DNA of 64,000 nucleotides, taken from NCBI GenBank assembly GCA_025435555.1, contig JAIWWG010000107.1:31217-95216 (forward strand), written 5' to 3'. Both the position numbers and the translations under genes were made by a program. Origin of the DNA: Chytriomyces cf. hyalinus JEL632 (taxonomy: Eukaryota; Chytridiomycota; Chytridiomycetes; Chytridiales; Chytriomycetaceae). This document shows, in pieces, positions 14,700 through 42,364 of this stretch. How positions within the stretch are numbered: position 1 is the stretch's first letter; each line of letters begins with the position of its first letter. Under the pieces are notes generated by a model. The model did no database searches. It was not told where the DNA came from and saw only the letters and a program-made list of their open reading frames with translations.

Positions 14700-15610
14700 G
14701 GCACTTACATCCCTCGCGTTGTTTCAAGACCCATCACTCTTTGGCTACTCGGATGCGTTGCGACCCACCAAGACTGCGTGAACTGCAATGGCTTCAAGAA
14801 CCTCTCTCGTCAACACGCTGTTGAATGCTCTCAAGTCGATCCCCAGGTCTTCCAACAGTTGGGGGTGGTCCGACCAATGACTGCAGCAGAACTAGGACTG
14901 GGAATGACCCAGATCGATCTCTGCCTCCGAAACTCAGCTACGAGGACTCGGCGCAGTTGGCGGTGCTGGCCACTCTCATCGAACAAGTTCGGACTACCTG
15001 CACTGGATACCAACCCATCTACGATGCCTCGGACGCTACTGCGGCTCAAGAAATCGAATTCATCACGCGTGAACTGGAACCCCTCGATGGTGAGGACTTG
15101 GACCACGAAATCCTTGCCCACACTACCCAGCTTGTCGACATGCACTTTGAACCGCTCGCAGCTGTTCTACCTCCTCGAACTCTCTCTCGTCGACCTCCTC
15201 GTGCTCCGCCTGCTCAAGTCGGTGCTCCTGCTCCTCGCGTTCCCCTTCCTGGTGGTCTGGGGATTGGCGGCCGTCCTCGCAGACCCCGCTAGCTGTTGTT
15301 TCTTTCTCTATTGGCCCCATGGTGCGGCCAGGCTGTTGTATACCTGTCGTGCGCTCAAGTCTTTGAGCACCCCACCTCTGTGTGATCTCGCTCCCAACTT
15401 TTCTTTGCCATAACAACCATCCTCTTTTCACTCTACCTTTTTGATACAAGTATCTCTACCGGGTTTTTGTGGTGGGTGGGCCCCTTGTTATGGGTTTTTT
15501 ACCGAGTCACGGTTTTCCCATATCAATGCGCGTTTTTTCTTTCTCGTGATGCACGTCCTTTCCTTCTAAAGCGTATTGGAATAAAACACACTGAAAACGT
15601 TAGGGTTATG
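14700..15610 (+). mobile_element. LINE fragment A: decayed 3' end of a family-I element
   Basis: From about 14,700 the sequence parallels the ORF2 3' end and 3' UTR of the intact family-I element (about 32,828-33,701), including the CCHC-like finger region, but frameshifts split the reading frame and it is clearly older than copies B and D. It has AATAAA near its end and finishes with the tail GAAAACGTTAGGGTTATG at 15610, directly followed by copy B. The left border with host DNA is approximate; no target duplication was found. Bases 14,526-14,699 hold only presumed 5' flank of the membrane-protein gene. Confidence 0.85.
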
Positions 15611-16816
15611 ACCAGACTCCAAGTCCCTGTACGTTGCATCCACGAGGCACAACGAGTTCTGGTCCAGCAACACTGACCTTATGGCCAAGCGCTGGCGGAA
15701 TCTGTCTGTTGATCACCCACTTGTATCCGTTGATCCACTGGTACCCTTTGGCAGGGCTGCGAAACGTGTAGTCTCACTCCCCGACAAGGCAATTGATGAG
15801 TACCACTTTCTCTCTTTAACTTTAATGCTCCGTGCTTCAAAATCCCGTATCGCACAGATTCTACCCGTGCCCAAAACGCGTCATCAACGTCACCCATTGG
15901 TTCAATCTGGTGCTTATATCCCTCGTGTTGTCTCAAGACCCATCACACTGTGGCTCCTTGGCTGTGTGGCAACACACCAAGACTGCGTCAACTGCAATGG
16001 CTTCAAGAATCTCTCTCGTCAACATGCTGTCGAATGTGCTCAAGTGGATCCACAAGTCTTCCAACAGTTGGGGGTGACCAGGCCTATGACTGCAGCAGAA
16101 GTTGGTATGGGGATGACCCAGATCGACCTATGCCTCCGGATCCTCAACTACGAGGAACTGGCGCAGTTGGTGGTGCTGGCCACACTCATTGAACAAGTTC
16201 GGACTACTTGCACTGGATACCACGCCATCTACGATGCCTCGGATGCTACCCCAGCTCAAGAAATCGAGTTTATCACACGCGATCTGGAACCCCTTGACGG
16301 CGAGGACTTGGATCACGAAATTCTCGGACAAGCTACCCAAATTATCGATCTGCATTTCGAACCTCTCGCAGCTGTTCTACCTCCTCGGACCCAAGCTCCA
16401 AGGCCAAGACGGCAAGCTCAAGTCAATGCTCCTCCTCGCGTTCCCCTTCCTGGTGGTTTGGGGATTGGCGGCCGTCCTCGCGGGCCCCGCTAATGTTGTT
16501 TCTCTTTATTCTATTGGTCCCATTGTGCGGCCAGGCTGTTGTATACCTGTCGCCAGCTCAAGCCTTTGAGTGTTCACTGTTTCGTGATCTTCGTTTCCAT
16601 CTTTCTTTCGCCAAAACATCCATCCTCTTTACACTCTACCTTTTTGATATTGACAACATCTACCGGGTTTTTGTGTTGGGTGGGCTCCTGTTTATGGGTT
16701 TTTACTTTGTCAAATCTTTTCCCATCTAGTCATGCGTTTTCTCCTTCTCTCGTGCTGCACGTCCAGTCCTTCTAAAGCGTACCGGAATAAAACCAACTGA
16801 AAACGTTAGGGTTATG
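15611..16816 (+). mobile_element. LINE fragment B: 1.2-kb 5'-truncated family-I copy
   Basis: It begins at ACCAGACTCCAAGTCCC, exactly abutting the tail of copy A, and ends with GTTAGGGTTATG at 16816. It contains the last ~270 codons of ORF2 (15681-16493), with a finger motif C-V-N-C-x10-H-x4-C, then the 3' UTR with a small TAATG-coupled frame. The sequence is close to copies D (21739) and E (32,531 on); its first base matches that of copy D. Confidence 0.92.
15681..16493 (+). pseudogene. ORF2 C-terminal fragment in LINE copy B, 270 aa
   Basis: This uninterrupted frame carries only the region after the reverse transcriptase: a helical segment, the finger H-Q-D-C-V-N-C...R-Q-H-A-V-E-C that may bind the element RNA, and a basic, Pro/Gly/Arg-rich end. 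It has no endonuclease or polymerase domain, so it cannot drive retrotransposition alone. The in-frame ATG is a LINE-internal methionine, so translation is uncertain. Stop TAA 16491-16493 overlaps an ATG. Confidence 0.8.
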
Positions 16817-16817
16817 T

Positions 16818-17108
16818 CGCCATGAAGCCGATATCCGTCAGAAACTCGACGCGAAGCAGATCTTGCTCAGTGATTTCAACCCGTTGGATAGTCCGCCACA
16901 CCAACCGGATGCGAATGAGGACACGATGAAAGAACGCATGTGCGCGCGCCGTGCTGGGGTTTATCGCAGAGCTCGTTTTGCGCTTGTGAAGCAGGCTGCA
17001 CTTGAGGGATGTGACACGGCAATGCAGGCTCGTATCCGAGAACTTGCTGCGCCAAAACAGGGTAATCAGTCAGGATCCAACTCTGAGGAAACTCAGATGG
17101 AGCAATGA
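16818..17108 (+). CDS. Family-II LINE ORF1 (Gag-like), C-terminal 96 residues
   Basis: The frame is open from the element junction to TGA 17106-17108. It is rich in Arg, Lys, Ala and Gln with a central R-A-G-V-Y-R-R-A-R-F-A-L-V-K helix, plausibly RNA-binding. Its stop codon overlaps the ORF2 start as ATGA (17105-17108). The N-terminal part is missing because of 5' truncation. Confidence 0.7.
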   Translation, partial: RHEADIRQKLDAKQILLSDFNPLDSPPHQPDANEDTMKERMCARRAGVYRRARFALVKQAALEGCDTAMQARIRELAAPKQGNQSGSNSEETQMEQ

Positions 17109-20080
17109 TTGAGCACACCAAAATCGGATTTTTGAACGCGCGAAGAAACCTCATCGGTGAAGGACACCACATTGAATCCCTCATGAAACACAAAAAGTTA
17201 GACTACTTAATCCTCGCGGATACTGGGCTCAGAAAATCGGCAACAAACCCTATGAGAAATGTGATAGCAGAAACACGCGGAGAGACTCTCATTGGCGACC
17301 CTGCTCGCGGGGTAACCAAAGCTCGTAATGGGTTGATGATGATCGATGCAACCGGCAGGCAAACGTCTATTTTCGAAATCAGTGATGACGACAGTAGATG
17401 GATGGTAGTCCGCCTTGGAGACACACTTCTAGTTAGCGCGTATTTGGCTCCCTCTGAAGGAGCAGCAACACTTACCGCCTTCGATCTGATGATGACGCGG
17501 CTTCAGCAGCAGAACATCGGATCGCCAATCATTATGGTTGGAGACCTCAATGCTCGCCACATTCGTGTGGGTGATCATAGCACAGTCCCGAACTCTGGCG
17601 TAAATGGTCAACACAGAACGTGGATTGAAAAATGGCTTGATGATGGTGACTGGCTTCGCGTCGACCCGGTCCAGGGGAAATGGACAACATGGAGCACCAA
17701 CGGTGGAAAAGGGATCACTGATCTCGTCTTCGCCAATGGGCCTGGAGCCACGCGCGTTTCGAATTTAACAGTACTGGACAACGAAACCGCGATTGGCTCC
17801 GACCACCATCTCTTGACATTCGAAGTGACCGGTTTGGCTGGCTTTCGAAAACCCCCATTCGAACGCATCAACATCCGTGCTCTGCAGGGCAGAATGGATC
17901 AGTATCGTGAGGAACTTGAGATAAGGGAAGGGGAAATCAACCAAGTACTCACTGCAACAATTGAGGAAATCGAGCATCATCGACTCACGGCCGGACCAGT
18001 CACATGGGAAGACCGCGTCGATATTGCTGACCGTGCTTGGGACCTAGTATCTGACTGGATTCGTTCAGCTGCGAGAAAAACCCTTGGTGTGGTTAAGTTT
18101 CATGGTGGCGCTCTCAAGGCGGATATGATTGAGGACCATCTCAAAGAGCTGATGCGTTGGCGCACTGAAGCCCAGGACGCGATGCTTGAAGCTGGATTGG
18201 ATCCCATCACGCGGAGAGAACGTGCCGGTAAACTTCGGTATATCAACATCATTGTTCGAAAGGCAGCCAAGCGCTCGAGGAAACGTCTCTACAATGCAGT
18301 TACTGACACCAGAGTGTTTGACCCAAGTGCAGAAGCCAAACGGATTGCCTGCCAACGTGCGCGGAGCCTGCGATCCAACTGCGCCCTACGACCGGATAAA
18401 ATGGATCAATACGCGCAACACTTCAAAACAACGTTTGGCTCACCACCTAAAGGAGAGGACCAACCCAACCCCATCGCGCTTGACACAACCAACCCCCGCT
18501 CTCCTCAAACCCCCCTCACAAAAGCATCAGTCGCGGATATCATTAAGGAAGAAAACGTGCATAGTCTGGTCGCATGGATGCCCTCCGGAAAAGCAGCTGG
18601 AGAAGATGGAATACACGGGGAGTTAGTCAAGGGGCCCAAGGACCCGGAGACTGAAATCATTATCACCGCTTACCCCCTCACCCTCGCATTCCGCATCTTC
18701 ACCGCACTTCGAGCAACACCGAACGAGTGGAACGTCGCCAACGTGGCGCTGGTCTACAAAAACAAGGGTGATCAACATGACGTCGCCAATTATCGTCCCA
18801 TATCGCTTACCTGTCGTATTCGGATGGTGTATGAGGGTTGCTTCCGTCATCTCCTTGAACATCGCACTAACTCGTTCACTGACATCGCACAAGGCGGCTT
18901 CCGCCGCAACCGATCTACCCTCGACCAGCTACTCACCCTCCACGAAATCATTGCAGCCCACCCCGATCTCCACGCAGTATACCTCGACATCCAAGCAGCC
19001 TATGACTGTACCAACCGCCCCCTCCTTTGGACAGAAATGTTCGAAAACCCATCAGACCCCAACCCACAGCTTACACACTCAGTCCTCATTCCCATCTTCA
19101 GATGTCTGTTTGACCACAACGTCGCCTGTCTACTTGTATCCGGCTCCAAATCTGCAGATATCCCAGTCACCCGTGGTCTTCTCCAAGGAACACTCTCAGC
19201 ACCTCCCCTCTTCAACATCTCAATCAACTCGCTTCCAGCAACACTCCGTGACCTGTACCAGAATGCCTGTATTCGCGTCGGACCCCACCGCATCAACTCA
19301 CTTCTTTTCGCAGATGACACTACAGTTTTCGCGCGCAACAAACACACACTTCAGCAAATCATCAACACTGTCGCAGAATGGGGTAAGAAGAAGGGCGTCA
19401 CCTGGGCGCCACACAAAAGCGTCGCTGTCGGACCGACCGAGATGCGCATCAAAATGCATGGAATCGAAATAGCGCAAAGAGACAGCACCAGCTACGTAGG
19501 AATGACAATGACAGCCGCAGGAATCGACATGACCGCATCAACATCAAAAAGAATCACCGACGCCAAGAAGACTCTATCCTGGATGAAGGGAAAAGGGTTT
19601 AATGGTTTTGGTTTTCGAACCCTGCACAGTTTATACATGTACCCAGTCTTTATTCGCTCGCAACTCGAATACGGTCTTGCAATTCGTCCGCTCACGACCG
19701 AAGAACTCCAGCCGCTCCAGAAGTTCCAGAACACGTGTCTCCGCATCCTCTACTCAGTACCCACCTCCACATCTATCGCCTCGTTACACCTACTATCATC
19801 AGTTCCCACCATCAAAACCCGCAACCTTATCCTCAACGCTGCCTACTACTACCGTCTACATCAGTCCAACGACACTCGCAACCTCACACTACACACATAC
19901 CGCCAAGGTCTTGAACGCGACCACCGACCCGAATCCACATCGCTCATCAAACACACTCTCGCACACAACCACCACTTCCGATCACTCCCCCGCCTCGCAC
20001 TCATCGTCAATCCACTCATCGCCAACAACCGCCAACCCATGATCATCACACCCCGCGGATCCAGCCACAAGATCCCCTCT

Positions 20081-20854
20081 TGTGAGGATTTGGGTTTTGG
20101 GCTTTGATAGGATTTATTATCTTAAGGTGAATCACAACACAACAAAACAGCTCTCCTTATATACATTTTTGGCTCCTGCAAAATCTCATTGGGCTTTCTT
20201 CAGTTTCACTTTTGAGCCACCCTTTTTTCCATTTCATTTGTCATTTCAGTTCTACAAATGAGATTTGATGTGAAATCATCCATTTTTCATTTTGCAGTTT
20301 GAAATTGCTGAAAAAGTGAGTCAGTGCTGACAATTCATTACTGGCTGACAGTTAAGGCTTGTCAATCATAATTAATAATACTTTTCCAAGTTGATTTCTA
20401 TTTCTTCTTCTTCTGCTTATTTCTCTATAAAGATCAGAAGATAGCTGCATGAAACTGGCAGCAGTGTGGGTTGAACCAGGGACCTGTTGGTCTGTAGTCG
20501 CGAACCTTAACAACTAGGCCAGCATCATATATATTCCAGACAATTACTTTCAACCATCTTTATGCTTGATCAGAGCAAGAATAGTTGAAGTCATGTAGTG
20601 AAATAAGCTATCATCATCTACAAGTCCACACCCTTCATAGAACACGTGTATTCGTGTATTCATTCCTTGTTATAGTATCTACTAGACGTTTACCCTACTC
20701 AATGTCATAAATCATGCCCATATGTATTGAGGTTGGTGGAATGGTGAGGTGCGTGACTCTTCTTTATCTGCAGTAGAGAATAAGAGATGAATCAGGGAGA
20801 CTTAACCTTTATTGAAGTAAACAGTGCTCCATCACTTGAGACTGATATTCAACA
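20081..20854. mobile_element. Solo LTR, 774 bp, TG...CA, 5-bp target duplication CCTCT
   Basis: It starts TGTGAGG and ends TTCAACA and is flanked by CCTCT at 20076-20080 and 20855-20859. Taking out the LTR and one CCTCT makes the LINE ORF2 frame continuous, which fixes the borders. No internal retroelement genes remain, so it arose by LTR-LTR recombination. A second, partial relative lies at 42,365-42,935. A tRNA-like element is embedded at 20,458-20,528 on the minus strand. Confidence 0.9.
20458..20528 (-). promoter_or_regulatory. tRNA-like Pol III promoter inside the LTR (A and B boxes)
   Basis: On the minus strand TGGCCTAGTTGTTAAGG (20521-20505) fits an A box and GGTTCAACCC (20477-20468) a B box, spaced as in tRNA-derived SINEs. 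The same pair occurs in the relative at 42,602-42,549. Either a SINE inserted into an ancestral LTR before it spread, or the LTR acquired a Pol III promoter. No tRNA can be called: the stems are imperfect. Confidence 0.6.
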
Positions 20855-21738
20855 CCTCTGACACAATCGACGAATGGCACCACCAAGACATGCTCACGCT
20901 CCAGCAGAAATCCCAAGCCCGGACATCGAAAATCCTCCCAGTCCCCGCGACCCGCAAGCAGCGCCATGCGCTTGTCATGGCCGGCCCCGCCATCTCCAGA
21001 CCAGTCTCTCGCACCGTCCTCCTATGGCTCCTCGGCCGCATCTGTAACCACCAAGAATGCCGCAAATGCGGCGCCGAACTGTCCCGCCAGCATGGGATTG
21101 AGTGCTCCGGAATTGAACCCGCCCTACAAGCCATCTTCGACAACAATCTCGGACCACCACCAGAACTCATTGCGCATGGAGCCACTATCATCGACGAAGC
21201 CATTAGCAAGCTGGAGTTCAAATCCGGTACCAATGCAAGAATCGAAGCCACTTACCAGGCCATCAACACGATCCGACTCGACTGCGGCGGATATCGCGAG
21301 ATCATTGACGCCAGCACCGCCACGCTCCAGCAGGAGCTCGATGCCGTCTTCGCCGACTACGAGGGCCTGCGCAGCATCCGAACACAAGCAACAGCCATCA
21401 TGAATGCCCATTGCAACCCAGCGAAATTCAAACCAACTTACCGGAGCGGACCATCAAGCACACAAGCGCCCCAGCGTGGAGCGATCCGGAATCGAGGCGG
21501 CCGGCCGCGAGGCCGTGGACGAGGCGGCTGATGAGGCGGACTTGTTCTGTTGTTGCTGGCAGATCGACATCTTTGCTTTTTTTGTCAAATTTTACATTTA
21601 ACCATTTCGGAATTTTTCGTGACTTAGTCGTTTTTTCTTTGTATCTTTACCAAACACGGCCCAAAAAGGGAACCGATTACCATTTCGAAAGCGCGCTTTA
21701 TCCTGCAATAAAGACACACTGAAAACGTTAGGGTTATG

Positions 21739-22944
21739 ACCAGACTCCAAGTCCCTGTACGTTGCATCCACGAGGCACAACGAGTTCTGGTCCAGCAACA
21801 CTGACCTTATGGCCAAGCGCTGGCGGAATCTGTCTGTTGATCACCCACTTGTATCCGTTGACCCACTGGTACCCTTTGGCAGGGCTGCGAAACGTGTAGT
21901 CTCACTCCCCGACAAGGCAATTGATGAGTACCACTTTCTCTCTTTAACTTTAATGCTCCGTGCTTCAAAATCCCGTATCGCACAGATTCTACCCGTGCCC
22001 AAAACGCGTCATCAACGTCATCCATTGGTTCAATCTGGTGCTTATATCCCTCGTGTTGTCTCAAGACCCATCACACTGTGGCTCCTTGGCTGTGTGGCAA
22101 CACACCAAGACTGCGTCAACTGCAATGGCTTCAAGAATCTCTCTCGTCAACATGCTGTCGAATGTGCTCAAGTGGATCCACAAGTCTTCCAACGGTTGGG
22201 GGTGACCAGGCCTATGACTGCAGCAGAAGTTGGTATGGGGATGACCCAGATCGACCTATGCCTCCGGATCCTCAACTACGAGGAACCGGCGCAGTTGGTG
22301 GTGCTGGCCACACTCATTGAACAAGTTCGGACTACTTGCACTGGATACCACGCCATCTACGATGCCTCGGATGCTACCCCAGCTCAAGAAATCGAGTTTA
22401 TCACACGCGATCTGGAACCCCTTGACGGCGAGGACTTGGATCACGAAATTCTCGGACAAGCTACCCAAATTATCGATCTGCATTTCGAACCTCTCGCAGC
22501 TGTTCTACCTCCTCGGACCCAAGCTCCAAGGCCAAGACGGCAAGCTCAAGTCAATGCTCCTCCTCGCGTTCCCCTTCCTGGTGGTTTGGGGATTGGCGGC
22601 CGTCCTCGCGGGCCCCGCTAATGTTGTTTCTCTTTATTCTATTGGTCCCATTGTGTGGCCAGGCTGTTGTATACCTGTCGCCAGCTCAAGCCTTTGAGTG
22701 TTCACTGTTTCGTGATTTTCGTTTCTACCTTTTATTTGCCAAAACATCCATCCTCTTTTCACTATACCTTCTTGATATTGACTATCTCTACCGGGTTTTT
22801 GTGTTGGGTGGGCTCCTGTTTATGGGTTTTTTCTCCGTCAAATCTTTTCCCATCTAGTCATGCGTTTTCTCCTTCTCTCGTGCTGCACGTCCAGTCCTTC
22901 TAAAGCGTACCGGAATAAAACCAACTGAAAACGTTAGGGTTATG
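21739..22944 (+). mobile_element. LINE fragment D: 1.2-kb 5'-truncated family-I copy
   Basis: It begins at the same element base as copy B (ACCAGACTCCAAGTCCC) and ends with GTTAGGGTTATG at 22944. It contains the 270-codon ORF2 C-terminal frame 21809-22621 (finger present), then the TAATG-coupled small frame 22621-22857 and AATAAA near the end. It differs from B by few substitutions in the ORF2 part, more in the 3' UTR, where it is closer to E. Confidence 0.92.
21809..22621 (+). pseudogene. ORF2 C-terminal fragment in LINE copy D, 270 aa
   Basis: Same content as the frame in copy B: post-RT region with H-Q-D-C-V-N-C...H-A-V-E-C and a basic Pro/Gly-rich end, without endonuclease or RT. The frame is intact. 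Its stop TAA overlaps the ATG of the small downstream frame. Confidence 0.8.
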
Positions 22945-25027
22945 GAAGGAACTTTCTCGAAATTGTGTTGTTGTTGTCCAAGCAGCAACCCGCCAACCTG
23001 CAACCACCAACACCAACAGCGCACCGCCAACACTCTCTGCAACTGGCCACCGGCCACCATCCTTCAGTATTAGCTCTCCCGCAGAGATCTACAGTGCTGC
23101 AGAACTCGAGCTCTGGAATCTCGCAAAAGGCCGCCTCGTTTACCCACACTGTGGCAACAGAAAGATCAACGCAGGCGCTGCTGGCAACCCCAACTCTCTG
23201 GGTGCAACCAAACGGTCCCTTGCGTGCAACAAGAACCCTCAGTGCTCCAGGCCCCGGCTTCTGGAATTCTGTCTTGGTCTTGATCACGATCCAGACTCAC
23301 CTACACACGACATCTTCACCAAGGCACAAGCTGTCAAGCAGATCTATACAGATCTGAAATCAGCGCGAAAAAGCGGTCTAGGAATGGCCAGCAAGACTGC
23401 TGGCAAGGGTGCTGCATCCAAGTTGGTGCAGCCAATTCTCTCTTTTTCAAGTGGCAAAGCAGCAACAACATCAGCAACTCCATCAGTTCAACTCGGATCC
23501 TCCCGAAACCTCGTCCAAAGCATAGAGACCACTCCCGCTATGCAGCGGGACTGGTCTCTTGCCCCCTCCTCCTCGTCCTCCTCCTCCCAAATCGATCCTG
23601 TGCAGTCTGAGTCCCCTCTCACTCCCAAGCAGGCCCAGAAACGAGCGCGCGAGTCTGACAGCCCACCCCAGGCACATCAGAACCCCCCGACGGCCCCTCT
23701 AGACGATGCTGCTGTCGAAAACAACGAATTAAATTGCGATCTGAGTGATCTGGCTGCTGTCTTTGATGGCAGTCAGCACAAAGCCCAGATGATCATGAGG
23801 TTTATTCAACGAATCATCAACCAATCGAACCAGCAGCACGGCGAGGCCATCCAGGTGCTACTACGAGACAGGGAATCGAAAATCGCGGAGCAGGAGCACC
23901 AGATTGAGCAGCAGCGCGTCGAAATTCAGGAACTTAGGCAAATCATCGAACATGGAACACCAGCAGCATCGAATGGACCCCCAGCAGTGACAGCACCGGC
24001 AGCGTGGCAGGTCCAGCAGCGTGGTGCTGCACCTTCTCGCGGTGGTAAGCGTGTTGGCCGTGGTGGAGCAGTGGTGGGATCACTGCGGAGCACACCTGCA
24101 ACCAATGGTCCAGCATCATATGCCGCTGCAGTTCAGCAGACGTCCACACCAAACCCAGTTCGTCAGTTCCCATCGTATGCCGAAAAACTCAAGCTAGCCA
24201 AGCAAGAGCAGACAGCAGCAGCTCAAGCAGCCTCCAATCTGGAACTACTGGCTGATCTCAAGAAGCAACAAGAACGTCGTTCCAATCCACCCATTCGTCG
24301 GGAGCCAGTCGAGTACAAGTCCTTCATTATCGAGAACCCACTTGGGAACAGGACACGTTTTGTCCAGAACCCACTGCAGCGCATTCGAAGCATCCTTGCT
24401 GACGAGTACAAAGTCCCTCGCACTATCCGTGAGATCAGCTACATTGGTGCAGCCAAGTCCACCCTCGAGATTTTCATCAAGGTCTCAGACTATGATGATG
24501 CAATCACCAAGCTCTCAACACCCCTCGACCCAAGTCTTCCGTCCATCTTTGTGACATCCAACCTTGCCCAAGTACCAGACCACCGAGTGTTTGGCCTCCC
24601 CCCCCACCTTGCTCCCAGTGAACAGCAGATGGAGGAGGCCCTCATAAGGCGCCGTGCTGTCATGCTGGAACGTGCCTTGCGTGAACGTGTCCCAGTCATG
24701 TGCAGCGTGGCTACATCCAATGTCGACAGCTACTTGAAGAACCGAATCTACACAGCAGCCCTTATCCTATTTGAATCAGGATCCCTCAAACCATTCCTAT
24801 TCCCAAATGACATCTCCCGTACAAATCTCGATGCACTCAAAGCCGCAGCAGACAATTTGATCAGAGACGGAGAACTCCGCCCCCTCGAAGCCTCAGCGGA
24901 GCAAGTTAATCTAGTTGCAAAGCGATGTGAACTCCCCAAAGAGGAAGCAAAGCAGCAAGTCAAGAACTTTATTCGTGCCTTTCCACTATCAGCTCTGGCA
25001 GAGTGTCAAGCTGAAGCAGATTCATGA
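22945..25027 (+). CDS. ORF1/Gag-like protein of G1 (547 aa from first ATG, open further 5')
   Basis: The first in-frame ATG is 23384, but the frame is open back through the junction. That upstream part encodes a Cys/His-rich segment matching the N-terminus of family-I ORF1 (G-N-P-N-S-L-G, C-S-R-P-R-L-L-E-F-C-L), so the true start may have been lost by 5' truncation. In order: N-terminal Cys-rich motif; Ser/Pro-rich linker with K-R-A-R-E; a coiled coil (about 150-190 after the ATG; L-L-R-D-R-E-S-K-I-A-E-Q-E); a Gly/Arg/Ala-rich basic segment; and a C-terminal globular domain beginning Y-K-S-F-I-I-E-N-P-L-G-N-R-T. The same I-E-N-P-L-G-N domain is in ORF1 of E and F. The predicted role is RNA binding and assembly of the retrotransposition particle. 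Confidence 0.8.
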
Positions 25028-25287
25028 TAACCTCGGATTTCCTTTCCTTTCTTTTCTCTTATCTTTTGGTCTTTTCTTTTGATTACGACCAGGCCTGACT
25101 TTCCTCTCTCGCCTGGGATATCCCCCACTTGTCTTCGCTGTTCCCACCCGTCTACCTCAGAAAACTCTTAGTCCATTCATTCTTCCTGAATATCTCCTAG
25201 TTTACGCGTTTTTCCTTGTCGCAAAGCACGTCTGATCCCCCTCGGGGCTGTATTGGAATAAAACACACTGAAAACGTTAGGGTTATG
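22945..25287 (+). mobile_element. LINE copy G1: ORF1-only (Gag-only) element
   Basis: It sits between the tail of D and its own GTTAGGGTTATG tail (25276-25287). It contains an ORF1 frame and a 257-bp 3' UTR but no endonuclease or RT. The ORF1 stop still has the ATGA form seen at ORF1/ORF2 borders of the full elements (25024-25027), followed by a short remnant frame, suggesting derivation by loss of ORF2. The 3' UTR ends GGAATAAAACACACTGAAAA before the tail, as in the other elements, so the RT could recognise it in trans. Confidence 0.85.
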
Positions 25288-26950: not shown

Positions 26951-27108
26951 GATTCTTTACAAAAAACGAGTGCGGTGCTGGAAATTAGTCCAACAGCCCA
27001 CCATCAACAGCAACAGCTACAGCAACGTCAGACAGTGCTCTCAGTCCCGGCACTCTACTCAGGAACATCTAGGAAGCACATTGGTGCTCTTTCTGGAACA
27101 AAGCAACG

Positions 27109-27472
27109 GTAAGTGAGTGAGTTGTTGTTTACTAACTCCACACTCTCTACACAGACTCTCTCAAATCGAGTCGGATCGATCTCAAACCACTCTGGTTGTG
27201 ATCGCCGGCATCGAAAACCTTGTATCTGCGACAAAGGCGGCTGCCTATCGTCGCGCGTTCTCGTTTTACGTTGGTGCTGTTGTGTGCTGTCAAAGTACAC
27301 CATCCCCAACCAACTCCATCAAAAACCGTCGGACACACTCCAAATCACAGGAGCACGGTCTCGCGGACCTATCAAAACAATCGACGGCGGTGATCACGGC
27401 GTTGTATCGAATTTGAGAGCGCCGGTGAGTGTTCTTTATTTCCTTACAACTCAACACCCCCTCTCTCCACAG
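27109..27472 (+). other. Two intron-like segments in LINE E 5' region
   Basis: Segment 1 (27109-27154, 46 bp) has GTAAGT, a perfect TACTAAC branch site and ACAG. Segment 2 (27425-27472, 48 bp) has GTGAGT and CCACAG. Both recur in copy F (37972-38017 and 38288-38335). Removing segment 1 joins a frame starting at ATG 26948 (its ATG is part of the upstream tail) to an open frame that ends at TGA 27414-27416. Confidence 0.6.
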
Positions 27473-27618
27473 GCGACAGTCCCCCAGACCTGGGATTTAC
27501 TGTCTGACCCCTCTCGCGGTACCCGAATCCAACCGCGCTTTCGAAAACCGGCTGCCACGTTCGCTTCGCGCGCGGCTGGTTCTTCTTCTGTTTCTTTTTT
27601 GTCCGGACAGTCCGGACT

Positions 27619-33413: not shown

Positions 33414-33649
33414 TGTTGTTTCTCTTTATTCTATTGGCCCCATTGTGCGGCCAGGCTGTTGTATACCTGTTGCCAGCTCAAGCCTTTGAGTGTTCACTGT
33501 TTCGTGATTTTCGTTTCTACCTTTTATTTGCCAAAACATCCATCCTCTTTTCACTATACCTTCTTGATATTGACTATCTCTACCGGGTTTTTGTGTTGGG
33601 TGGGCTCCTGTTTATGGGTTTTTTCTTCGCCAAATCTTTTCCCATCTAG
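33413..33649 (+). CDS. Small hydrophobic frame after ORF2 (78 aa), TAATG-coupled
   Basis: Its ATG overlaps the ORF2 stop as TAATG. The 78-residue product has two to three hydrophobic stretches (M-L-F-L-F-I-L-L..., V-F-V-L-G-G-L-L-F-M-G-F). The same length is kept in copies B (16493-16729) and D (22621-22857) despite several substitutions, most of which change residues. It may be chance T-rich 3' UTR; no homologue is known to me. Confidence 0.3.
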   Translation: MLFLFILLAPLCGQAVVYLLPAQAFECSLFRDFRFYLLFAKTSILFSLYLLDIDYLYRVFVLGGLLFMGFFFAKSFPI

Positions 33650-33704
33650 TCATGCGTTTTCTCCTTCTTTCGTGCTGCACGTCCTTTCCTTCTAAAGCGT
33701 ATAA

Positions 33705-33797
33705 TCTACTGAGTTTGTCGATAGTCAAGACGATGTTGCCATGTCTGTGTCCAATCTGGATCTTGGTCCCGCGGCTGACGCCGCCGACCAAGAATGA
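33705..33797 (+). CDS. Family-III LINE ORF1, last 30 residues
   Basis: The frame is open from the junction and ends in A-A-D-A-A-D-Q-E with TGA 33795-33797, which overlaps the ORF2 ATG. It is too short to show a domain; it is called because the overlap matches the arrangement in families I and II. Confidence 0.5.
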   Translation, partial: STEFVDSQDDVAMSVSNLDLGPAADAADQE

Positions 33798-36700
33798 TCA
33801 AAATCGCATTTTCGAATCTCAACGGGCTGTCTGGCAAAGCCGAAGAAGTCCTGAGATTCAAGTCTGCGCAATCTGTTGACCTTTCTTTAATGGTGGAAAC
33901 GTGGCTCTCCCCAACATCCTCCATTCCTTTTCGACCACACCTATTTAATATCACAAGTACAAACACGGAGGCAATTGCGGGAGGTCGGCGCAATTTTGGC
34001 GGCATTTTGGCGTTCTCAACTGCAACTCTCTCCCCCCAATTCCGAGTTATCTATGAAGATCCCTTGGGGTTCTATTGCGCAATGCGCATCTCTGATCTTA
34101 TCCTCATCACTGCCTACATCCCCCCCTCTGCTGACAATCGGGTAATCGGGGACATGCTTCAAAAAGCGGAAACGTTATCTGAAGGCTTTACGTTGCGTTG
34201 TCTTTTGGTTGGCGATCTGAACGCACGGATGACGGATGCTGGTGATTCACTCACAAACACACGTGGAACGTATATGCAGCAGGAACTGTTCAACTCTGGA
34301 CTTGCGCTTCAAATCCCGGAGTCTGGGAAATGGACGTCGTGGGCTGGTGGTGGTCGAGGGATTCCGGATGTTGTACTCTCGAGCTTCCCAGTCTCTAACC
34401 TCACAGTTCATGAAGGCGAGTCACTTGGAGGTTCGGACCATCGGCCGCTGACATTTTCTGTGCCACTGGATGTCGAAACCAAGCCCAAGTCTTTTGCGCG
34501 CTGGAATGTTCGTCGCCTCACAACTGCCAAATACCATCAGCGTTTTGCTGAGGAGCTGGAGTCCACGCAGCAGGAGATCATGGATCAACTGGAATTGCTG
34601 CGAACACGCTTGGAAAGCCCTGCTGTGGGATACGTTGCGGGTGTATCACAGTGCGATGCACACACCGTGGCACCTGCAGTAGGCGCCAACCCTCCGGGAA
34701 GTACTTCCCATGCTTCTCTTGATCCTGTTACTCACACTGCGGATTGCCCCAGAGCCACCACTCACATGTCTGACAGTCCTTCTCAGTCCGCTGGTCCATC
34801 CCACTCCCATCCACGTTCTGTCGATGCTCCCAACCCATCTACGCAGCAGGACATGTGCTTATGCCTGGAATTGCTGCGAACGAGCTTTGAAAGCCCTGCT
34901 GTGGGGTACATCGCGGGTGTATCACAGTGCGATGCACACACCACGGTACCTGCAGTAGGCGCTCCCCTCCCGGGAAGTACTTCTCGCTCCTCGCTCTTGA
35001 ACAATACTCACACACCAAACCGTGCTAGAACTCAAGAGTTGATCAACAAGGCCTGGGAACACTTCCTGTCATGGGTCCGAAATGCTGCGTCAAAGTCAAT
35101 TGGTGTCCTCCAAGTCTCTGACCATCTGCCATCGGAGTTTTGGACTGATGAGCTTGAACAAAGTCGGGACAACGTGCAGCAAGAACTTGCGAACGTGCAA
35201 CAGGAAATCGAGCGTGGCCAGTTGTCTCGTCTCGAAATCAAACGCCTTGCTTCCGAACTGACCAACACTCAGCGTGCTTACCGGGCGGATCTGACCACAC
35301 GCAAGCGCGTGCTCTTCGAAGATGCTGTCGATAAGCTCACAGTCCCACAAAACATGTCCTCGTTCATGCGCATGGTAAAAGGAGCCAAGTCGCGAAAAGA
35401 CCGCACTGTCTGCAAACTGGACCCGGCGAAAATCAATGAACACGCTGCCCATTTTCGAACTACCTTTGGAGCACCTCCGACTGGACATCCCCAACCTGGA
35501 CCCCCTGCGCTTGAGGAAATCCAGTCGCGTCCAACTCAGGAAGTCTTCAACCCGGATGCGATCATGTCTGCGATTGCTGGACTCCCACTCGGAAAGGCTA
35601 CTGGATCCGATGGAATTCCTGCTGAACTCATCAAAGCCGGTGGCGATCTCATGGCTGACGTTCTCAGTGTTTTCCTGCCCATGGTCCATGCTGCTGCAAC
35701 TATTCCATCTGACTGGAGGAAGGCGCTCATTGTGCCAGTCTTCAAGAAGAAGGGATCTGATCAGGACATTGCAAACTACCGACCCATTGCACTGACAAGT
35801 ACGATACGACGACTCTACGAGCGGCTGCTTGTTCCTGAACTTGGACCCGTAATGCAACAACTCGATGACTTTCAAGGTGGCTTCAGACCCGGTCGGTCCT
35901 CGCTCGATCAAGCCATGGTTCTCCACGAAACCCTGAACACCAATGAACATGCTTCGACTATCCTGCTAGACATCAAAGCGGCATATGACGAAGTTGATCG
36001 ACGGGTTCTTTGGCAAATGCTCACACAAGTCTTTGGCCTGGATGAATTCATGCTTGCACGGCTCCAGGATCTTTTCAATCACAACTCGTGCTGTCTGGTG
36101 GTGGCTGGCGTGATTAGTGATCCGATTGACAACGAACGAGGTCTTTTGCAGGGTGCTACTCTGTCCCCGATTTTGTTCAACTGTCACATCCATGGTCTCT
36201 CAATTCGGCTACGTGCTCCTGGAATCCCGCGAATTCGAATCAACGGTATCCATCTCAATAACCTCCTGTTTGCAGACGATACGTCCTTGGTAGCTGCAAA
36301 TCAACATGATCTCGCAGTCCTGCTCCGAACGTGTGAGGAATGGTCCAACACTGTCGGCATCCGGTTCTCGCCATCCAAGTGCATCTATCTCGGTCCTGTT
36401 CCAGCACAGCGTGATATACCTCTCAAGCTCTACAACGTGGACCTTCCATCCCAGCAATGTGCCCCGTATCTCGGCATCCCTTTTGGTCAACACGGAATCA
36501 ACTGGGCTCTGCTGGCAAAGGAACGAACATCAAAAGCGCGTGGTGTCATTGTGGCGCTGGCGTCGGTAGGTATGAATGCAATGGGCTGGGCTCCTGCAGC
36601 TTCTGTTACTATCTACAGGAGTTTCATTCGGCCGGTTCTTGAATATGGCATTGCTCTCAAGCTCCCATCCGCGTCCACACTCAAGTTGTACGAGTCGGTC

Positions 36701-37615
36701 CAACGTCTTGCACTACGGACTCTCACATCAACACCCCGCAACACGTCCACTGCCGCTCTCCACAAGCTGCTGCAAGTCGAACCATTCAAACACCGTGCTA
36801 CCGAGCTCAATCTCATGTGGTCCTCCCGATTGCATAACTCAACTGATCGTTCTATCCCGGCTGTTCGTTTCTGGCGCGGCGCTCTGCTTGGTGCTGACAA
36901 ACCATTTCAGGAATGTCTTCCCCGCCTTGCTCGCTCCAACCCACTTGTGACTCATGTGGATGCTAAATGGATTGATTTTCGACAGCAACCACTGGTTCCC
37001 CCACCTCCAGCTGAAGTTCCGTTCCGGTACCCTCCGAAGCCAAAACAAGCGCTGTCTGACAATGCTCGCAAGAAGCTGCGCAAGGAATCCATCCTCAACT
37101 TGAACAACAACCTGGACACCATTGCTGGCGCAATCCAAGTCGAAACCAAAGACCCAGTCCGGCCGTATCTGACTGCCTGCAAAGGAATCGACCGCAAAAC
37201 ACGCAACAACATCCTTCGCTGGACTCTTGGTGCCGTCACCCGACACGAACCGTGCCTCAAGTGCAACGACGTACTGACCCGATCCCATGCTGCTGACTGC
37301 TCCGGTGCCACTGCCTTCCTGCGAATCAACCGCGAAACACTTGCACCCCCTGTCGGCCGCATGACATGGTTTGACACAATCCTGAATGAAGTCCGGAACA
37401 CACCGCCCTCTGAAATTGACTCATACAATGACGTCTCTGCTGCTGTAGCACTCATCTACACCGAATGTCGCCACCTCCAACAGCAAGCCAATGGCTACTG
37501 GGCCGAGCCAGATGCACCCGCACGACCACTGCCGCCTCGAAGACCGCGAAATCGCATATCTCAACCCGGGGGAGCCCCGCTTGGGCGACCACGGCAAAAC
37601 CCGGAGCCTGGATAA
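33794..37615 (+). CDS. Family-III LINE ORF2: endonuclease-RT-finger, 1273 aa
   Basis: Intact frame. The endonuclease has F-S-N-L-N-G-L, G-D-L-N-A-R-M at ~139 and S-D-H-R-P-L-T-F at ~214. The linker between endonuclease and RT carries an in-frame tandem duplication of 276 bp (92 codons; repeat starts at about 34,591 and 34,867, each with L-E-L-L-R-T and G-V-S-Q-C-D-A-H-T). The RT shows N-Y-R-P-I-A-L-T, Q-G-G-F-R-P-G-R-S-S, L-L-Q-G-A-T-L-S-P and F-A-D-D at ~826. The C-terminal finger is C-L-K-C-x8-H-x4-C at ~1153. It is roughly 50 residues longer than the family-I protein, largely because of the duplication. Confidence 0.9.
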   Translation: MIKIAFSNLNGLSGKAEEVLRFKSAQSVDLSLMVETWLSPTSSIPFRPHLFNITSTNTEAIAGGRRNFGGILAFSTATLSPQFRVIYEDPLGFYCAMRISDLILITAYIPPSADNRVIGDMLQKAETLSEGFTLRCLLVGDLNARMTDAGDSLTNTRGTYMQQELFNSGLALQIPESGKWTSWAGGGRGIPDVVLSSFPVSNLTVHEGESLGGSDHRPLTFSVPLDVETKPKSFARWNVRRLTTAKYHQRFAEELESTQQEIMDQLELLRTRLESPAVGYVAGVSQCDAHTVAPAVGANPPGSTSHASLDPVTHTADCPRATTHMSDSPSQSAGPSHSHPRSVDAPNPSTQQDMCLCLELLRTSFESPAVGYIAGVSQCDAHTTVPAVGAPLPGSTSRSSLLNNTHTPNRARTQELINKAWEHFLSWVRNAASKSIGVLQVSDHLPSEFWTDELEQSRDNVQQELANVQQEIERGQLSRLEIKRLASELTNTQRAYRADLTTRKRVLFEDAVDKLTVPQNMSSFMRMVKGAKSRKDRTVCKLDPAKINEHAAHFRTTFGAPPTGHPQPGPPALEEIQSRPTQEVFNPDAIMSAIAGLPLGKATGSDGIPAELIKAGGDLMADVLSVFLPMVHAAATIPSDWRKALIVPVFKKKGSDQDIANYRPIALTSTIRRLYERLLVPELGPVMQQLDDFQGGFRPGRSSLDQAMVLHETLNTNEHASTILLDIKAAYDEVDRRVLWQMLTQVFGLDEFMLARLQDLFNHNSCCLVVAGVISDPIDNERGLLQGATLSPILFNCHIHGLSIRLRAPGIPRIRINGIHLNNLLFADDTSLVAANQHDLAVLLRTCEEWSNTVGIRFSPSKCIYLGPVPAQRDIPLKLYNVDLPSQQCAPYLGIPFGQHGINWALLAKERTSKARGVIVALASVGMNAMGWAPAASVTIYRSFIRPVLEYGIALKLPSASTLKLYESVQRLALRTLTSTPRNTSTAALHKLLQVEPFKHRATELNLMWSSRLHNSTDRSIPAVRFWRGALLGADKPFQECLPRLARSNPLVTHVDAKWIDFRQQPLVPPPPAEVPFRYPPKPKQALSDNARKKLRKESILNLNNNLDTIAGAIQVETKDPVRPYLTACKGIDRKTRNNILRWTLGAVTRHEPCLKCNDVLTRSHAADCSGATAFLRINRETLAPPVGRMTWFDTILNEVRNTPPSEIDSYNDVSAAVALIYTECRHLQQQANGYWAEPDAPARPLPPRRPRNRISQPGGAPLGRPRQNPEPG

Positions 37616-37810
37616 TCAACCGCCAAGCCCGAACTGACCATACGTATCTTATTACCTTTACCGATCATCTGTTTTCTTAACATTTCCGCACTCTACTTCT
37701 GATTCTTTGGAGTTTCTGAACTTTTTTTGAATGATTTTTGCTATCTTTCAACCCCGCACTTGTGTTACTGTGTAACTTGATTAAAAGAAACTGAAAACGT
37801 TAGGGTTATG

Positions 37811-40800
37811 GGGAAAGGTTAAGGAAAAACGCGTGCGGTGCTGGAAAATAGTCCAACAGCCCACCAACAACAGCAACAGCTACAGCAACGTCAGACAGTG
37901 CTCTCAGTCCCGGCACTCTACTCAGGAACATCTAGGAAGCACATTGGTGCTCTTTCTGGATCAAAGCAACGGTAAGTGAGTGAGTTGTTGTTTACTAACT
38001 TCACACTCTCTACACAGACTCTCTCAAATCGAGTCGGATCGATCTCAAACCACTCTGGTTGTGATCGCCGGCATCGAAAACCTTGTATCTGCGACAAAGG
38101 CGGCTGCCTACTGTCGCGCGTTCTCGTTCTTTGTTGGTGTTGTTGTGTGCCGTCAAAGTACACAATCACCAACCAACTCAATCAAAAACCGTCGGACACG
38201 CTTCAAATCACAGGAGCACAGTCTCTCGGACCTATCAAAACAATCGACGGCGGTGATCACGGCGTTGTATCGATTTTGAGAGCGCCGGTGAGTGTTCTTT
38301 ATTTCCTTACAACTCAACACCCCCTCTCTCCACAGGCGACAGTCCCCCAGACCTGGGATTTACTGTCTGACCCCTCCCGCGGTACCCGAATCCAACCGAG
38401 CTTTCGAAAACCGGCTGCCACGTTCGCTTCGCGCGCGGCTGGTTCTTCTTTTGTTTCTTTTTTGTCCGGACAGTCCGGACTTTGCAACAAAAGTGTCCAG
38501 CGGCGAACAATACGCACAGGCTGAGAAAGACCTGTGGAAACTCGCACAAGGGCGTTTATTCTGTTTCATCTGTGGCAAAGAGAAGCTCTCAGCCGGCGGA
38601 ACAGGAAACCCCAACGCGCTTGGAGTCCGAAGCACATCGCTTTGCTGTCGACACAATCCTACTTGTTCCAGACCACGCCTCCTCAGATTCTGCCTGAACC
38701 TGGGAAGTGATCCAGAACTTCAGGACATTGTCGAAAAAGCTAAAGAAGTTCACCAACTTTACTTAGATCTTCTCGCAGAGCGGAAAATGGCACCGAAAAC
38801 CACAACGCTTCCAGCTAAGAATCAAAAAGCAATTACATCATGCTTTCCATCGACACTCACCCAAAACACAGGTACTTCATCGTCACAAGGAGTACCATGC
38901 ACACAATCGCAATCCTCTGAGTTTGGAGTCCCCGACTCCCTGGACCCAGACGCTGTGTTGGTCAATGCCACACAGACGTCGAAACTTGATTCACAGGAGA
39001 TCATTCTCGCACCGGACTCTCAGATTCTAGACTTTGATGCAGCAATTGACTCCGCAATCGAATCGCAAACCTCAACGATGGTGTCAAAAACGCCATCACG
39101 TAAACGCGCACGACCCGTATCGACACCATCACCTGCCCAGGCGCCACCATCGGCGGCCATGTCAGACATGGATTTTGACTTTGATAATCGTCCAGCGAGT
39201 CCAACTCCAGCCACAGGCATGGAATCACTCGTGGATGAACGTGATGGAGGCGACCACCAGGCCACCGAAATCGCGGTGCTGTCAAGCATTCTTGGGATCG
39301 ATGAAGCTAAGGCTGAAAAACTTAACGATTTTTTCAACTTAAAAAACTCTAAAGTCAAAAAGGATATTACAGATGCATTGAAAAAGGAGATCAAAAAGAA
39401 AGACGCCCTGATTAAACAGCAGGAGCGCCGCATTGCTGAACTGGAGGCACTGCTGGAGTCTCGTGTAACTCCCAGTGACCGCGACATTGTATCCAGACCA
39501 CCACCCCCACCGCAGCCATCAGCACAGCAGATGCAGCCACGTGGACTGACAAAGGGACGTGGCGGTGGAGTGGCAAGACGTTCACGATCAAAGAGTGCTG
39601 TTGTTGGCACTTACGCTGCTGCGGCAGCAAAGTCGGTCGTGGGAGTTGCTGAAGACGGAAAAGTGGCGGAACGCGAAAACGCGCGTGCAGCCTCGAAACC
39701 AAGGCAGCAGCAACATCAACGTCAGCCAGCTCAGCCACCAAAGCGCCTGAACTTCGAACAGAAGTCCAGAGTGAAAAAATTGGATCGTATCGCGAACGCT
39801 CAAACAGCAACAGGCGAAGACTTCCTGGCACACCTGAAACGCGTCCAGGAAGCCCGAGCCAATCCCACCTCTGAGCAGACCACCCGGGCGAGTGTTTCTT
39901 ATAAAAACATTTTTATTGAAAACCCGCTCGGTAACAGCACGGATCTTGTTACAGATCCATTCTTCAAAATCCGGTCGATTTTGTTTGATATCTACAAAGT
40001 CCCACGTACAGTTCGGGAGATTTCATTTGTTGGTATCAAAAAGTCGGTGCTGGAAATTTTCGTCAAAGACTCGGATCTGGAGGAAGCAATCAACGCCTTG
40101 TCCAATCCGGGGAGTGGTCTTCCAACTCTCTTTATTACGACTAACCTTCTCGACACCCCCCAACACAGAAGACTGGAGCACGCAAATCCAGCAAGAGTCG
40201 AACGGTCGGTGATCTTGCGTCGTGGCATCATGCTTGAACGCGCAATGCGTCAAGGCATCACAGTGATGCAGGAGATTGCACGGTCTAACGTGGACGAGTA
40301 CATGGCCTTCCAAATTGAGGCCTGTGCTTGCCACATTTATTTCGAAAATAACTTGAATTTCGAGTATCCAAATTCAATTAACCGCGACAACTTTCTTGAG
40401 AGAAAATCCCAAGCACAGGAGCGCTTACCAAGCACACCGGAACGGATGCCGTACCCAATCGAGATCCCACCCAAGCGAGTTGGAGCGCACCAACTCTCAC
40501 ACGGGGAGCTTATGGCGCAAGCCAGAAACTTTCACCGTGCGAGTCTCAAAGTGCGACTCTTCCGCAAGATTTGGAACCTTAGCGTTGAATCTGGGGAGTC
40601 GCAATGATTAACACAACCTTTGCATTATTAAATATTAACAAAAACCTCATAGGCTCAAAAGCTTTGGAGATCAACCACCTTATTACTAACTTATCAATTG
40701 ATTATATAGCACTAACTGAACACACTCTAGGTACCAGAGATACATGTCCCATCCGGGGCGTTATCTCTGAATCACGCGGCGAATCGCCGAATTTATATAA

Positions 40801-42364
40801 AGGGGGGTGCGACGGTGTGCTGATTGCACACACGAATGACCGCCTCACCACCAAATCTGTCGCCGAACATGAGGAAGGCCACTGGTGTGCCTCGTTGATT
40901 GGCGACATTGTCGTTATTGTTGCTTATCTGGCCCCACGTCTTGGGGCACTTGAACTAACTTTATTCGATGACTTTCTTCTCTCCATCGACCAGCTGTATC
41001 CAAATGCGCCAAAGATTCTGATGGGCGACTTCAATGCACGTGATCGCCAGTTTGGTGACCATGCGGACTGCAGTGACCCTGTTCGGAAAGACTGGATTCG
41101 GAACTTGGCTAACGAAGGATACTGGAGCTACGTCAAACCTACCTCTGGGAAATGGACGTCTGTCACGGAAACAGGTCATGGAATCCCTGACCTTGTTTTT
41201 GTTAATGATATTGGTAAAAACCGGATTTCGAACTTACAGGTGCTCGAACATGACACAACTGTCATGTCGGACCACCGACCAATCATCTTCACTGTGTCAT
41301 TCCCGGATGGCATTGAGAAGCCCCCATTCACACGCACCAACATCAGAAAACTGAGCGAGAAGCGCAACGACTTTATTACGACATTGGTTCCTGGTATCGA
41401 AGCCCTCGAGGGTCAGATCAACACCGAACTTGCCCGAATCGACGCCAAACGACGGGAAAATGAGGCACTTACGTGGGAAACGCGTCGAAACATCGCGGAA
41501 AAATTTGCGACCGCGATTTCGACACTTTTGGTGGATGCGGGACAATCAGCAGCAGGAGTTATTCGATTCCGAGGCGGTTGTATCCATGCACCAATGCGCG
41601 AGTCTCACGTTGATCAGCTCAAACCCATCGTACTTGAAGCCACCAAACGTGCTTCAGAGAGTGTTGTTGGATCCATCGGTCATGCAGTCTTGTGGGCACG
41701 CGCTCGAAAATGGAAAGTCGTCTTGAAACGTGCAGAATTACGCTCACACAAACGCCTTTTCAACAAAACTGCAGATGAACGTCTTTACGATCCAGCCAGG
41801 GAAGCTAAGAGAATCGCGAATGCAAGACATAGACGGAATCGGTCCCACTGTGGTTTGGATCCGGACAATATGGACAACCACATGGCCCACTTTGCTACCA
41901 CCTTCGGCGCACCACCCACAGGAACAGATCAGCCGGATGCAGCTTCGATGGACGCTACAGATCCAGCCCAACCGCTGGTCCCCCTCCCCTATGTTTCCGT
42001 ATCCCCTCTCTTCTCTGAACATGACGTCGAGGAAGTCATGCGCTGTCAACCACGGGGGAAAGCCACCGGCGACGACACGGTGTACGGGGAAATGCTGGCC
42101 TATGCGGCTGAGGAGCTACGGGAAATGATGTGCCAGTTTTTCCGACTGTTGGTGATACTGCGTGTAACGCCACCACAGTGGGGAACAGCAAACGTGGCGC
42201 TGGTGTGGAAAAACAAAGGAGACAGGATGGACGTTGCCAACTACCGTCCCATCTCCCTCATTTCGCGTTTACGGATGACCTTTGAGGGTTGTCTACGGCC
42301 AAAAGTCATGGTACTTACTCATAGGATGCTTGACGTTGCCCAGGGTGGTTTCCGGCCACAGCGG
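37811..42364 (+). mobile_element. LINE copy F: family-I element with intact 5' end, 3'-deleted
   Basis: It follows the III tail and begins GGGAAAGGTTAAGGAAAAAC, the same 5' end seen at the start of G2, so this is probably the true element 5' terminus. It contains both intron-like segments (37972-38017, 38288-38335), ORF1, the ATGA overlap (40604-40607) and ORF2 up to the RT motif Q-G-G-F-R-P-Q-R, where homology stops at 42,364 and LTR-like DNA begins. The loss of the 3' half fits a deletion or recombination, not normal LINE truncation, which removes 5' ends. Confidence 0.9.
38292..40607 (+). CDS. Family-I LINE ORF1 in copy F, up to 771 aa
   Basis: The same domain order as ORF1 of E: Cys-rich motif (C-F-I-C-G-K-E-K...C-C-R-H-N-P-T-C), linker, coiled coil (K-K-E-I-K-K-K-D-A-L-I-K-Q), basic patch, I-E-N-P-L-G-N-S-T domain, G-E-S-Q end. 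Because an A-run is one base shorter than in E, the frame continues upstream to about 38,292 inside the second intron-like segment; no ATG marks the start. Many substitutions against E preserve the frame, as expected for a coding region evolving in separate lineages. Confidence 0.75.
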   Translation: MFFISLQLNTPSLHRRQSPRPGIYCLTPPAVPESNRAFENRLPRSLRARLVLLLFLFCPDSPDFATKVSSGEQYAQAEKDLWKLAQGRLFCFICGKEKLSAGGTGNPNALGVRSTSLCCRHNPTCSRPRLLRFCLNLGSDPELQDIVEKAKEVHQLYLDLLAERKMAPKTTTLPAKNQKAITSCFPSTLTQNTGTSSSQGVPCTQSQSSEFGVPDSLDPDAVLVNATQTSKLDSQEIILAPDSQILDFDAAIDSAIESQTSTMVSKTPSRKRARPVSTPSPAQAPPSAAMSDMDFDFDNRPASPTPATGMESLVDERDGGDHQATEIAVLSSILGIDEAKAEKLNDFFNLKNSKVKKDITDALKKEIKKKDALIKQQERRIAELEALLESRVTPSDRDIVSRPPPPPQPSAQQMQPRGLTKGRGGGVARRSRSKSAVVGTYAAAAAKSVVGVAEDGKVAERENARAASKPRQQQHQRQPAQPPKRLNFEQKSRVKKLDRIANAQTATGEDFLAHLKRVQEARANPTSEQTTRASVSYKNIFIENPLGNSTDLVTDPFFKIRSILFDIYKVPRTVREISFVGIKKSVLEIFVKDSDLEEAINALSNPGSGLPTLFITTNLLDTPQHRRLEHANPARVERSVILRRGIMLERAMRQGITVMQEIARSNVDEYMAFQIEACACHIYFENNLNFEYPNSINRDNFLERKSQAQERLPSTPERMPYPIEIPPKRVGAHQLSHGELMAQARNFHRASLKVRLFRKIWNLSVESGESQ

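Follow-up and report, generated by a model that had tools for sequence, protein, structure and literature searches.

A head-to-tail LINE array in the chytrid Chytriomyces cf. hyalinus JEL632 and a shared 3′ tail as its candidate landing site

Results

A 64,000-nucleotide stretch of Chytriomyces cf. hyalinus JEL632 DNA (assembly GCA_025435555.1, contig JAIWWG010000107.1, positions 31,217–95,216, forward strand; hereafter the window) contains at ∼14701–42363 an array of non-LTR (long terminal repeat) retrotransposons, or long interspersed nuclear elements (LINEs). Nine units, all on the + strand, directly abut one another in one orientation, as a preliminary description of this DNA had proposed. 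Seven of them end in an identical tail, denoted X. From left to right, unit A (14701–15610) comprises the 3′ end of a 5′-truncated open reading frame 2 (ORF2), a 3′ untranslated region (UTR) and X, with no X to its left. Unit B (15611–16816) comprises a 5′-truncated ORF2 C-terminus, the 3′ UTR and X. Unit C (16817–21738) represents a second ORF2 lineage (P0001), is 5′-truncated in ORF1 and ends in X, and its ORF2 is split by a solo-LTR-like insertion (TG...CA, 20081–20854, strand not assigned). This insertion is flanked by CCTCT at 20076–20080 and 20855–20859, one of three 5-mers common to both edges and picked for its position. Unit D (21739–22944) is truncated at the same 5′ point as B and has a different left neighbour. 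Unit E (22945–25287) carries ORF1 only (P0006), the 3′ UTR and X, and unit F (25288–26950), also ending in X, is a chimera of a ∼57-bp 5′ end of G/H type and an E-type ORF1 remainder. Unit G (26951–33701) has an H-like 5′ end, ORF1 (P0008) and ORF2 (P0003, with an apurinic/apyrimidinic (APE) endonuclease and a reverse transcriptase (RT)), and is without the last 35 bases of its family, X included. Unit P (33702–37810) represents a third ORF2 lineage (P0002), is 5′-truncated near the end of ORF1 and ends in X. Unit H (37811–42363), of the G family, has ORF1 (P0004) and the start of ORF2 (P0005); it is cut in the RT domain at 42363, so that its tail lies outside our view.

G and H have their 5′ end in common except for the first ∼20 bases, whereas A, B and D are 5′-truncated 3′ ends of the same family. 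DNA identity is 98.2% for B–D and 97.5% for B–G, and A matches the 3′ region of B, D and G at 81%, starting at 14704. The description of B and D as ORF1-only units has to be discarded: both are ORF2 3′ ends (the B protein P0007 is 98.6% identical to residues 938–1230 of P0003); E and F do answer to it. C and P each add an ORF2 lineage, and identities over aligned ORF2 stretches (C–G, 42%; P–G, 29 and 32%; C–P, 29 and 30%) bear out the proposed three ORF2 families. Pfam Exo_endo_phos_2 and RVT_1 were matched in P0001, P0002 and P0003 (the ORF2s of C, P and G), and this order, an APE-like endonuclease and then an RT, places the ORF2-bearing units, as judged from their predicted domains, among the APE-type LINEs. 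In a fold search with the endonuclease model, the best nine matches were L1, R1Bm and TRAS1 endonucleases, with AP endonucleases close behind; matches of the ORF2s to PDB sequences were L1 ORF2p or endonuclease variants, one "RNA-directed DNA polymerase" chain and exonuclease III types. With L1, R1 and TRAS1 endonucleases all among its matches, the fold search does not discriminate the LINE clade of the ORF2s.

A separate ORF1 lies upstream of ORF2 in G and H, and E carries ORF1 alone. ORF2 starts at an ATGA in C, G, P and H, with the ORF1 stop inside the overlap (read directly in G and H, and from the frames in C and P). A Pfam scan of the ORF1 proteins P0004, P0006 and P0008 gave no match, and the ORF1 fold model was poor (pLDDT, predicted local distance difference test, of 45). 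The ORF1 frames of E, G and H have a cysteine-rich stretch in common (23150–23272, 27700–27831 and 38562–38693, respectively), upstream of a Met that is a possible start. Between G and H, the nonsynonymous divergence (dN) was 0.13 and 0.18 and the synonymous divergence (dS) 0.77 and 1.07 for ORF1 and the aligned part of ORF2, respectively; the dN/dS of ∼0.17–0.18 in these coding regions therefore indicates that selection has acted to keep the G-family proteins functional. E and F (dN 0.024, dS 0.044) have too few differences to say much. The listed frames are open in B, D, E, F, G, P and, up to the cut, H. By comparison with B, D and G, the ORF2 remnant of A carries a 1-base frameshift; A may be the oldest unit or may derive from a defective source. 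Repeats lie inside ORF2 coding sequence at 32001–32035 and at 34562–34983 (∼146 bp, 84%), the latter lengthening the P ORF2 between endonuclease and RT.

The 18-base tail given in the preliminary description, GAAAACGTTAGGGTTATG, occurs in seven exact copies in the window, all on the + strand (starts at 15593, 16799, 21721, 22927, 25270, 26933 and 37793), and the chance expectation at up to three mismatches is 0.03. With a preceding ACT the identity extends to 21 bases in all seven, giving X, ACTGAAAACGTTAGGGTTATG, at 15590–15610, 16796–16816, 21718–21738, 22924–22944, 25267–25287, 26930–26950 and 37790–37810 (+ strand, all exact). X was not found elsewhere in the window on either strand, where the next best 21-mer matches at 14 of 21 positions; it is confined to unit ends. 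It is common to three ORF2 lineages with only 29–42% amino-acid identity and to the ORF1-only units. When the last 260 bases of the units were compared by sensitive alignment, C, E and P matched A, B and each other strongly just at the extreme end (32–38 bases, 91–100%; 21 bases for P–C). The remaining 3′-end matches were short and weak, the best being C–A (12 bases) and E–A (29 bases at 79%; both E = 0.008). The elements thus have a common 3′ end of ∼32–38 bases, of which the final 21 are invariant. That the 3′ UTRs otherwise differ holds upstream of this end, which is longer than the 18 bases first noted.

An AATAAA/ATTAAA heptamer lies 31 bases (6/7) or 32 bases (1/7) upstream of the first base of the next unit. 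At this distance either a TATA box or a poly(A) signal would be in its usual position. None of the seven X joints has an A-run between X and the next unit. When the terminal 75 and 110 bases of the seven units were folded, no overall structure common to them emerged. A weak hairpin within X (CUGA-AAACG-UUAG) was predicted in the last 31 bases of all seven (−1.2 to −3.1 kcal/mol); X being invariant, there is no covariation, and no inference was drawn from it. An Rfam scan of the window at gathering thresholds placed X in no RNA gene, its sole match being a tRNA at 5087–5160.

At seven of the eight internal junctions, the unit that follows begins at the base directly after X. The exception is the G|P junction (33701/33702), at which X is lacking, a point to be added to the preliminary description. 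Five distinct junction types, all from this one array, meet at one and the same base (X|B=D, X|C, X|E, X|F=H and X|G), and the units abutting X include some with the common G/H 5′ end and others that are 5′-truncated (B, C and D). A single random insertion into the array would fall exactly 3′ of an X with p = 7/27,663 (∼2.5 × 10⁻⁴). The coincidence of joints on one base is not due to chance, even given shared ancestry among some units. An assembly error is conceivable, although the variety of the joints argues against simple assembly collapse. These data agree with the proposal of precise insertion 3′ of an X-type site, now based on five junction types with unrelated bodies, and are best fitted by what had been offered as a bracketed alternative, namely insertion of the elements into each other's tails.

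The strongest rival is template jumping, in which the RT runs off the 5′ end of one RNA onto the 3′ end (X) of the next, yielding head-to-tail concatemers with no site specificity in one or a few insertions. It earns this rank by dispensing with a target site and by accounting also for F, G|P and the lack of X to the left of A. LINE RTs are known from work on R2 to jump end to end. Exact joints between a tail and a 5′ end would follow directly, G|P would be a jump to an internal site, and the F junction, with ∼57 bases of G/H-type 5′ end placed within the body onto an E-type ORF1, joins two element types as would be expected of template switching. However, RNAs from several lineages would have to take part in one event with successive jumps, and the frameshift in A set against the open frames of the other units hints at different ages. 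As the origin of the whole array we consider template jumping unlikely.

The relationship of B and D gives a view of the later history of the array. Their shared truncation point corresponds to G position 32531. Among 32 substitution sites in B, D and G, 12 unite B with D, 17 D with G and 3 B with G. Of the 17 D=G sites, 14 fall within 979–1098, which from its site pattern we read as a probable conversion tract in B; outside the tract, sites polarized by A unite B with D in five cases and D with G in one. The left neighbour is A for B and C for D, and C sits exactly between B and D at X. Most simply, B would have been duplicated and C would then have entered precisely at the X separating the two copies; alternatively, B may have been copied into the C/E joint. 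The common origin of B and D beside different left neighbours, and the tract in B with 14 of the 17 D=G sites, would also be expected if units had inserted elsewhere and had then been united by crossing over or conversion at X. Recombination between tails can copy X|unit joints, but it cannot make five different ones at one base, and we hold it improbable as the source of the array.

We then consider a telomeric connection. No tandem telomere repeat was found in the window (no TTAGGGTTAGGG, no CCCTAA); TTAGGG occurs nine times, seven of them within X. X contains TTAGGGTTA, an exact YTAGGGTTR, described as the human Trf1/2 site (PMC8305976). This motif makes a telomeric past of X, or its recruitment by a telomere-type protein, possible. 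X might accordingly be the trace of a target in telomeric repeats, entered in the manner of SART/TRAS or MoTeR elements: besides the YTAGGGTTR match, GTTAGGGTTA in X matches 10 bases of (TTAGGG)n, and MoTeR joints are described as short as AGGG or one TTAGGG, with identical spacers in one MoTeR array that arose by copying (PMC7367193). Against this, all seven spacers are identical though they join different units, and the bases beside the telomere-like core, ACTGAAAAC and TG, are not telomeric. We give this explanation little credence.

Host genes occupy the left flank (lanosterol synthase, and Pfam matches to L7Ae, S4, legume-like lectin and protein kinase), the side on which MoTeR polarity, as described in PMC7367193, would place the chromosome end. 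No chromosome end therefore lies within 14 kb to the left (5′) of the array; the situation on the right is less clear. There, copia elements are followed by a Sir2-like ORF near 62 kb that is below the Pfam cut-off (19 vs. 24 bits), and a Pfam scan of the ORFs at 54341–55126 and 60230–60655 gave no match. Copia copies and LTR-like pieces extend across 42936–62000 (e.g., an ORF at 48947–52927 with RVT_2 and integrase), with 99.6% identical pieces at 48420–48955 and 52685–53221. The right part of the insertion in unit C (20377–20854) recurs at 42458–42935 (94%), just right of the array end. Tandem repeats of a 36–37-base unit (GCGTTTTAAAAAACGGC-like) lie ∼11 kb apart at 44534–44606 and 55660–55837, with inverted pieces nearby.

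These flanks bear on a further explanation, terminal addition as for HeT-A, in which units were joined to a chromosome end with their 5′ end outward and the array was internalized later. Head-to-tail order, 5′ truncations, ORF1-only partners and the TTAGGGTTA in X would suit it, and the heptamer at −31/−32 may be set beside the promoter that HeT-A is described to have in its 3′ UTR (PMC4700185). The host genes on the left and the absence of telomere repeats from the window speak against it, as does the want of poly(A) at 7/7 X joints. Unit A, expected to be the youngest, carries a frameshift, although a defective source could account for that. Terminal addition therefore appears quite improbable. 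The telomere targeting put forward in the preliminary description is not established by the window, given the lack of TTAGGGTTAGGG and CCCTAA, the invariant spacers and the gene-bearing left flank; a link to chromosome ends is possible.

Discussion

On balance, we lean slightly towards nesting of APE-type LINEs by insertion at the tails of resident ones, X being both the tail and the preferred landing site, so that the target is self-renewing. Within this single array, there is good support for a preference for the base directly 3′ of X. In the proposed mechanism, the ORF2 endonuclease would nick a resident X, and the incoming RNA would anneal to the bottom strand of that X through its own 3′-terminal X, priming reverse transcription at the 5′ edge of the target X. 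Second-strand cleavage at the X 3′ edge would then leave X on both sides and renew the target with each insertion. X would thus be tail, address and target duplication together. ORF1-only and truncated units would ride in trans on the proteins of intact relatives, and units would later be reshuffled by recombination and gene conversion, as B/D and the tract in B may illustrate. There is a precedent for the pairing step in the pairing of RNA with the nicked target proposed for SART1 (PMC7265360), and for self-insertion in CNL1 (PMC12810828).

Several observations weigh against insertion at X. X is absent at the G|P junction and on the left of A. The shared end mostly spans 32–38 bases and has no sharp edge at 21, E and A show a weak collinear match further upstream, and such an end fits a common inherited tail, so that alone it does not show X to be a target. 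Gene conversion could also yield identical X copies. The 3′ UTRs of A and B differ at 77 of 319 aligned sites, which makes 21 unchanged sites improbable (p = 0.003), but the two also share identical runs of 28 and 21 bases outside X; because of these runs, X identity between A and B is weak evidence, and the weight of the evidence is on X identity across lineages. Finally, the target preference is drawn from one array.

If insertion at X is true, separate LINE lineages use one self-renewing address, and the array is at once a safe haven and a sink that spares host genes. Tail identity would explain which non-autonomous units can ride. The elements would be a possible midpoint between ordinary and telomere-bound LINEs, with a Trf-type site in the tail and no telomere repeats. 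A more far-reaching form, which we offer as a speculation and think rather unlikely, is that X combines the roles of landing pad, guide for RNA-target pairing and core promoter (the AATAAA-like box at −31/−32, with a start right after X) in no fewer than three old LINE lineages and in the ORF1-only satellites of these. Any unit between two X copies, even the truncated B and D, would then be transcribed and moved exactly X-to-X with the pad renewed, and the TTAGGGTTA core may recruit a telomere-type Myb protein.

Comparison with known systems

Relatives were sought in IMG/VR, GTDB contigs and plasmids, sets of viruses, prokaryotes and plasmids in which blanks say little on eukaryotes. Neither tail sequence was matched exactly, the 18-mer in IMG/VR or the 21-mer in GTDB contigs. 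Queries of IMG/VR with P0002, P0003 and the ORF2 alignment found no confirmed relative, nor did a query of GTDB contigs with the RT alignment. Among plasmids there was a single weak hit of 24.8% identity, from a bacterial record. A full-text literature search, in which X itself was not among the queries, brought up no array of this kind for fungal LINEs of APE type, which is no proof of absence from print.

SART1 and TRAS1 of Bombyx have a two-ORF structure, as our elements do. The TRAS1 endonuclease fold is among the best matches of our endonuclease model, and a telomere-like target, together with telomere-like RNA bases proposed to pair with the nicked target (PMC7265360), is a further likeness. 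Unlike our elements, they are described as inserting within tandem TTAGG repeats and as having a poly(A) tail (PMC7265360). Flanking tandem telomere repeats, as in SART/TRAS and MoTeR/FoTeR, were not found in the window, which lowers the case for membership of these groups but, given the short joints described for MoTeR (PMC7367193), not that for a telomeric origin.

Attachment via a 3′ poly(A), as in HeT-A and TART, finds no counterpart in our array, with no A-run at 7/7 X joints. Gag-only HeT-A stands beside RT-bearing partners, and our ORF1-only units may be compared with it. HeT-A, TART and TAHRE of Drosophila also form a head-to-tail array, theirs telomeric, and the HeT-A promoter is placed in the 3′ UTR (PMC4700185, PMC10088271). 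In contrast with ours, which has no poly(A) at its joints and does not lie at an end inside the window, these elements are described as sitting at chromosome ends with their poly(A) tails on the centromeric side. LINE accumulations near telomeres are formed by Zepp1 (Chlorella) and GilM/GilT (Giardia), for which we know of no tail shared across lineages. Both are named in PMC10088271.

Among fungi, MoTeR1/MoTeR2 (PMC7367193) and the FoTeRs (PMC12857005) likewise form arrays in one orientation, and MoTeR2 shares 3′ sequence with MoTeR1 (PMC7367193), as our units share a tail. By the same accounts, and unlike our elements, FoTeRs and MoTeR1 have a restriction-like endonuclease, and MoTeR/FoTeR arrays have telomere or telomere-like repeats at their joints and lie at chromosome ends, although internal MoTeR relics exist. 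Our ORF2s carry an APE endonuclease in place of the restriction-like endonuclease of the MoTeR/CNL1/R2 group, a restriction-like domain not having been separately searched for.

Another fungal parallel is CNL1 of Cryptococcus neoformans, a LINE in subtelomeric arrays of full-length and truncated copies, for which earlier work is said to report preferential insertion into its own copies (PMC12810828). CNL1 is described as an R2-superfamily element near MoTeR with its precise target undefined (PMC12810828), whereas our elements combine ORF1 with an APE-type ORF2, have a defined tail and come from several lineages within one array. The authors of that paper leave open whether CNL1 is directed to telomere repeats, to its own sequence or to both (PMC12810828), and X provides a concrete, testable case of that question.

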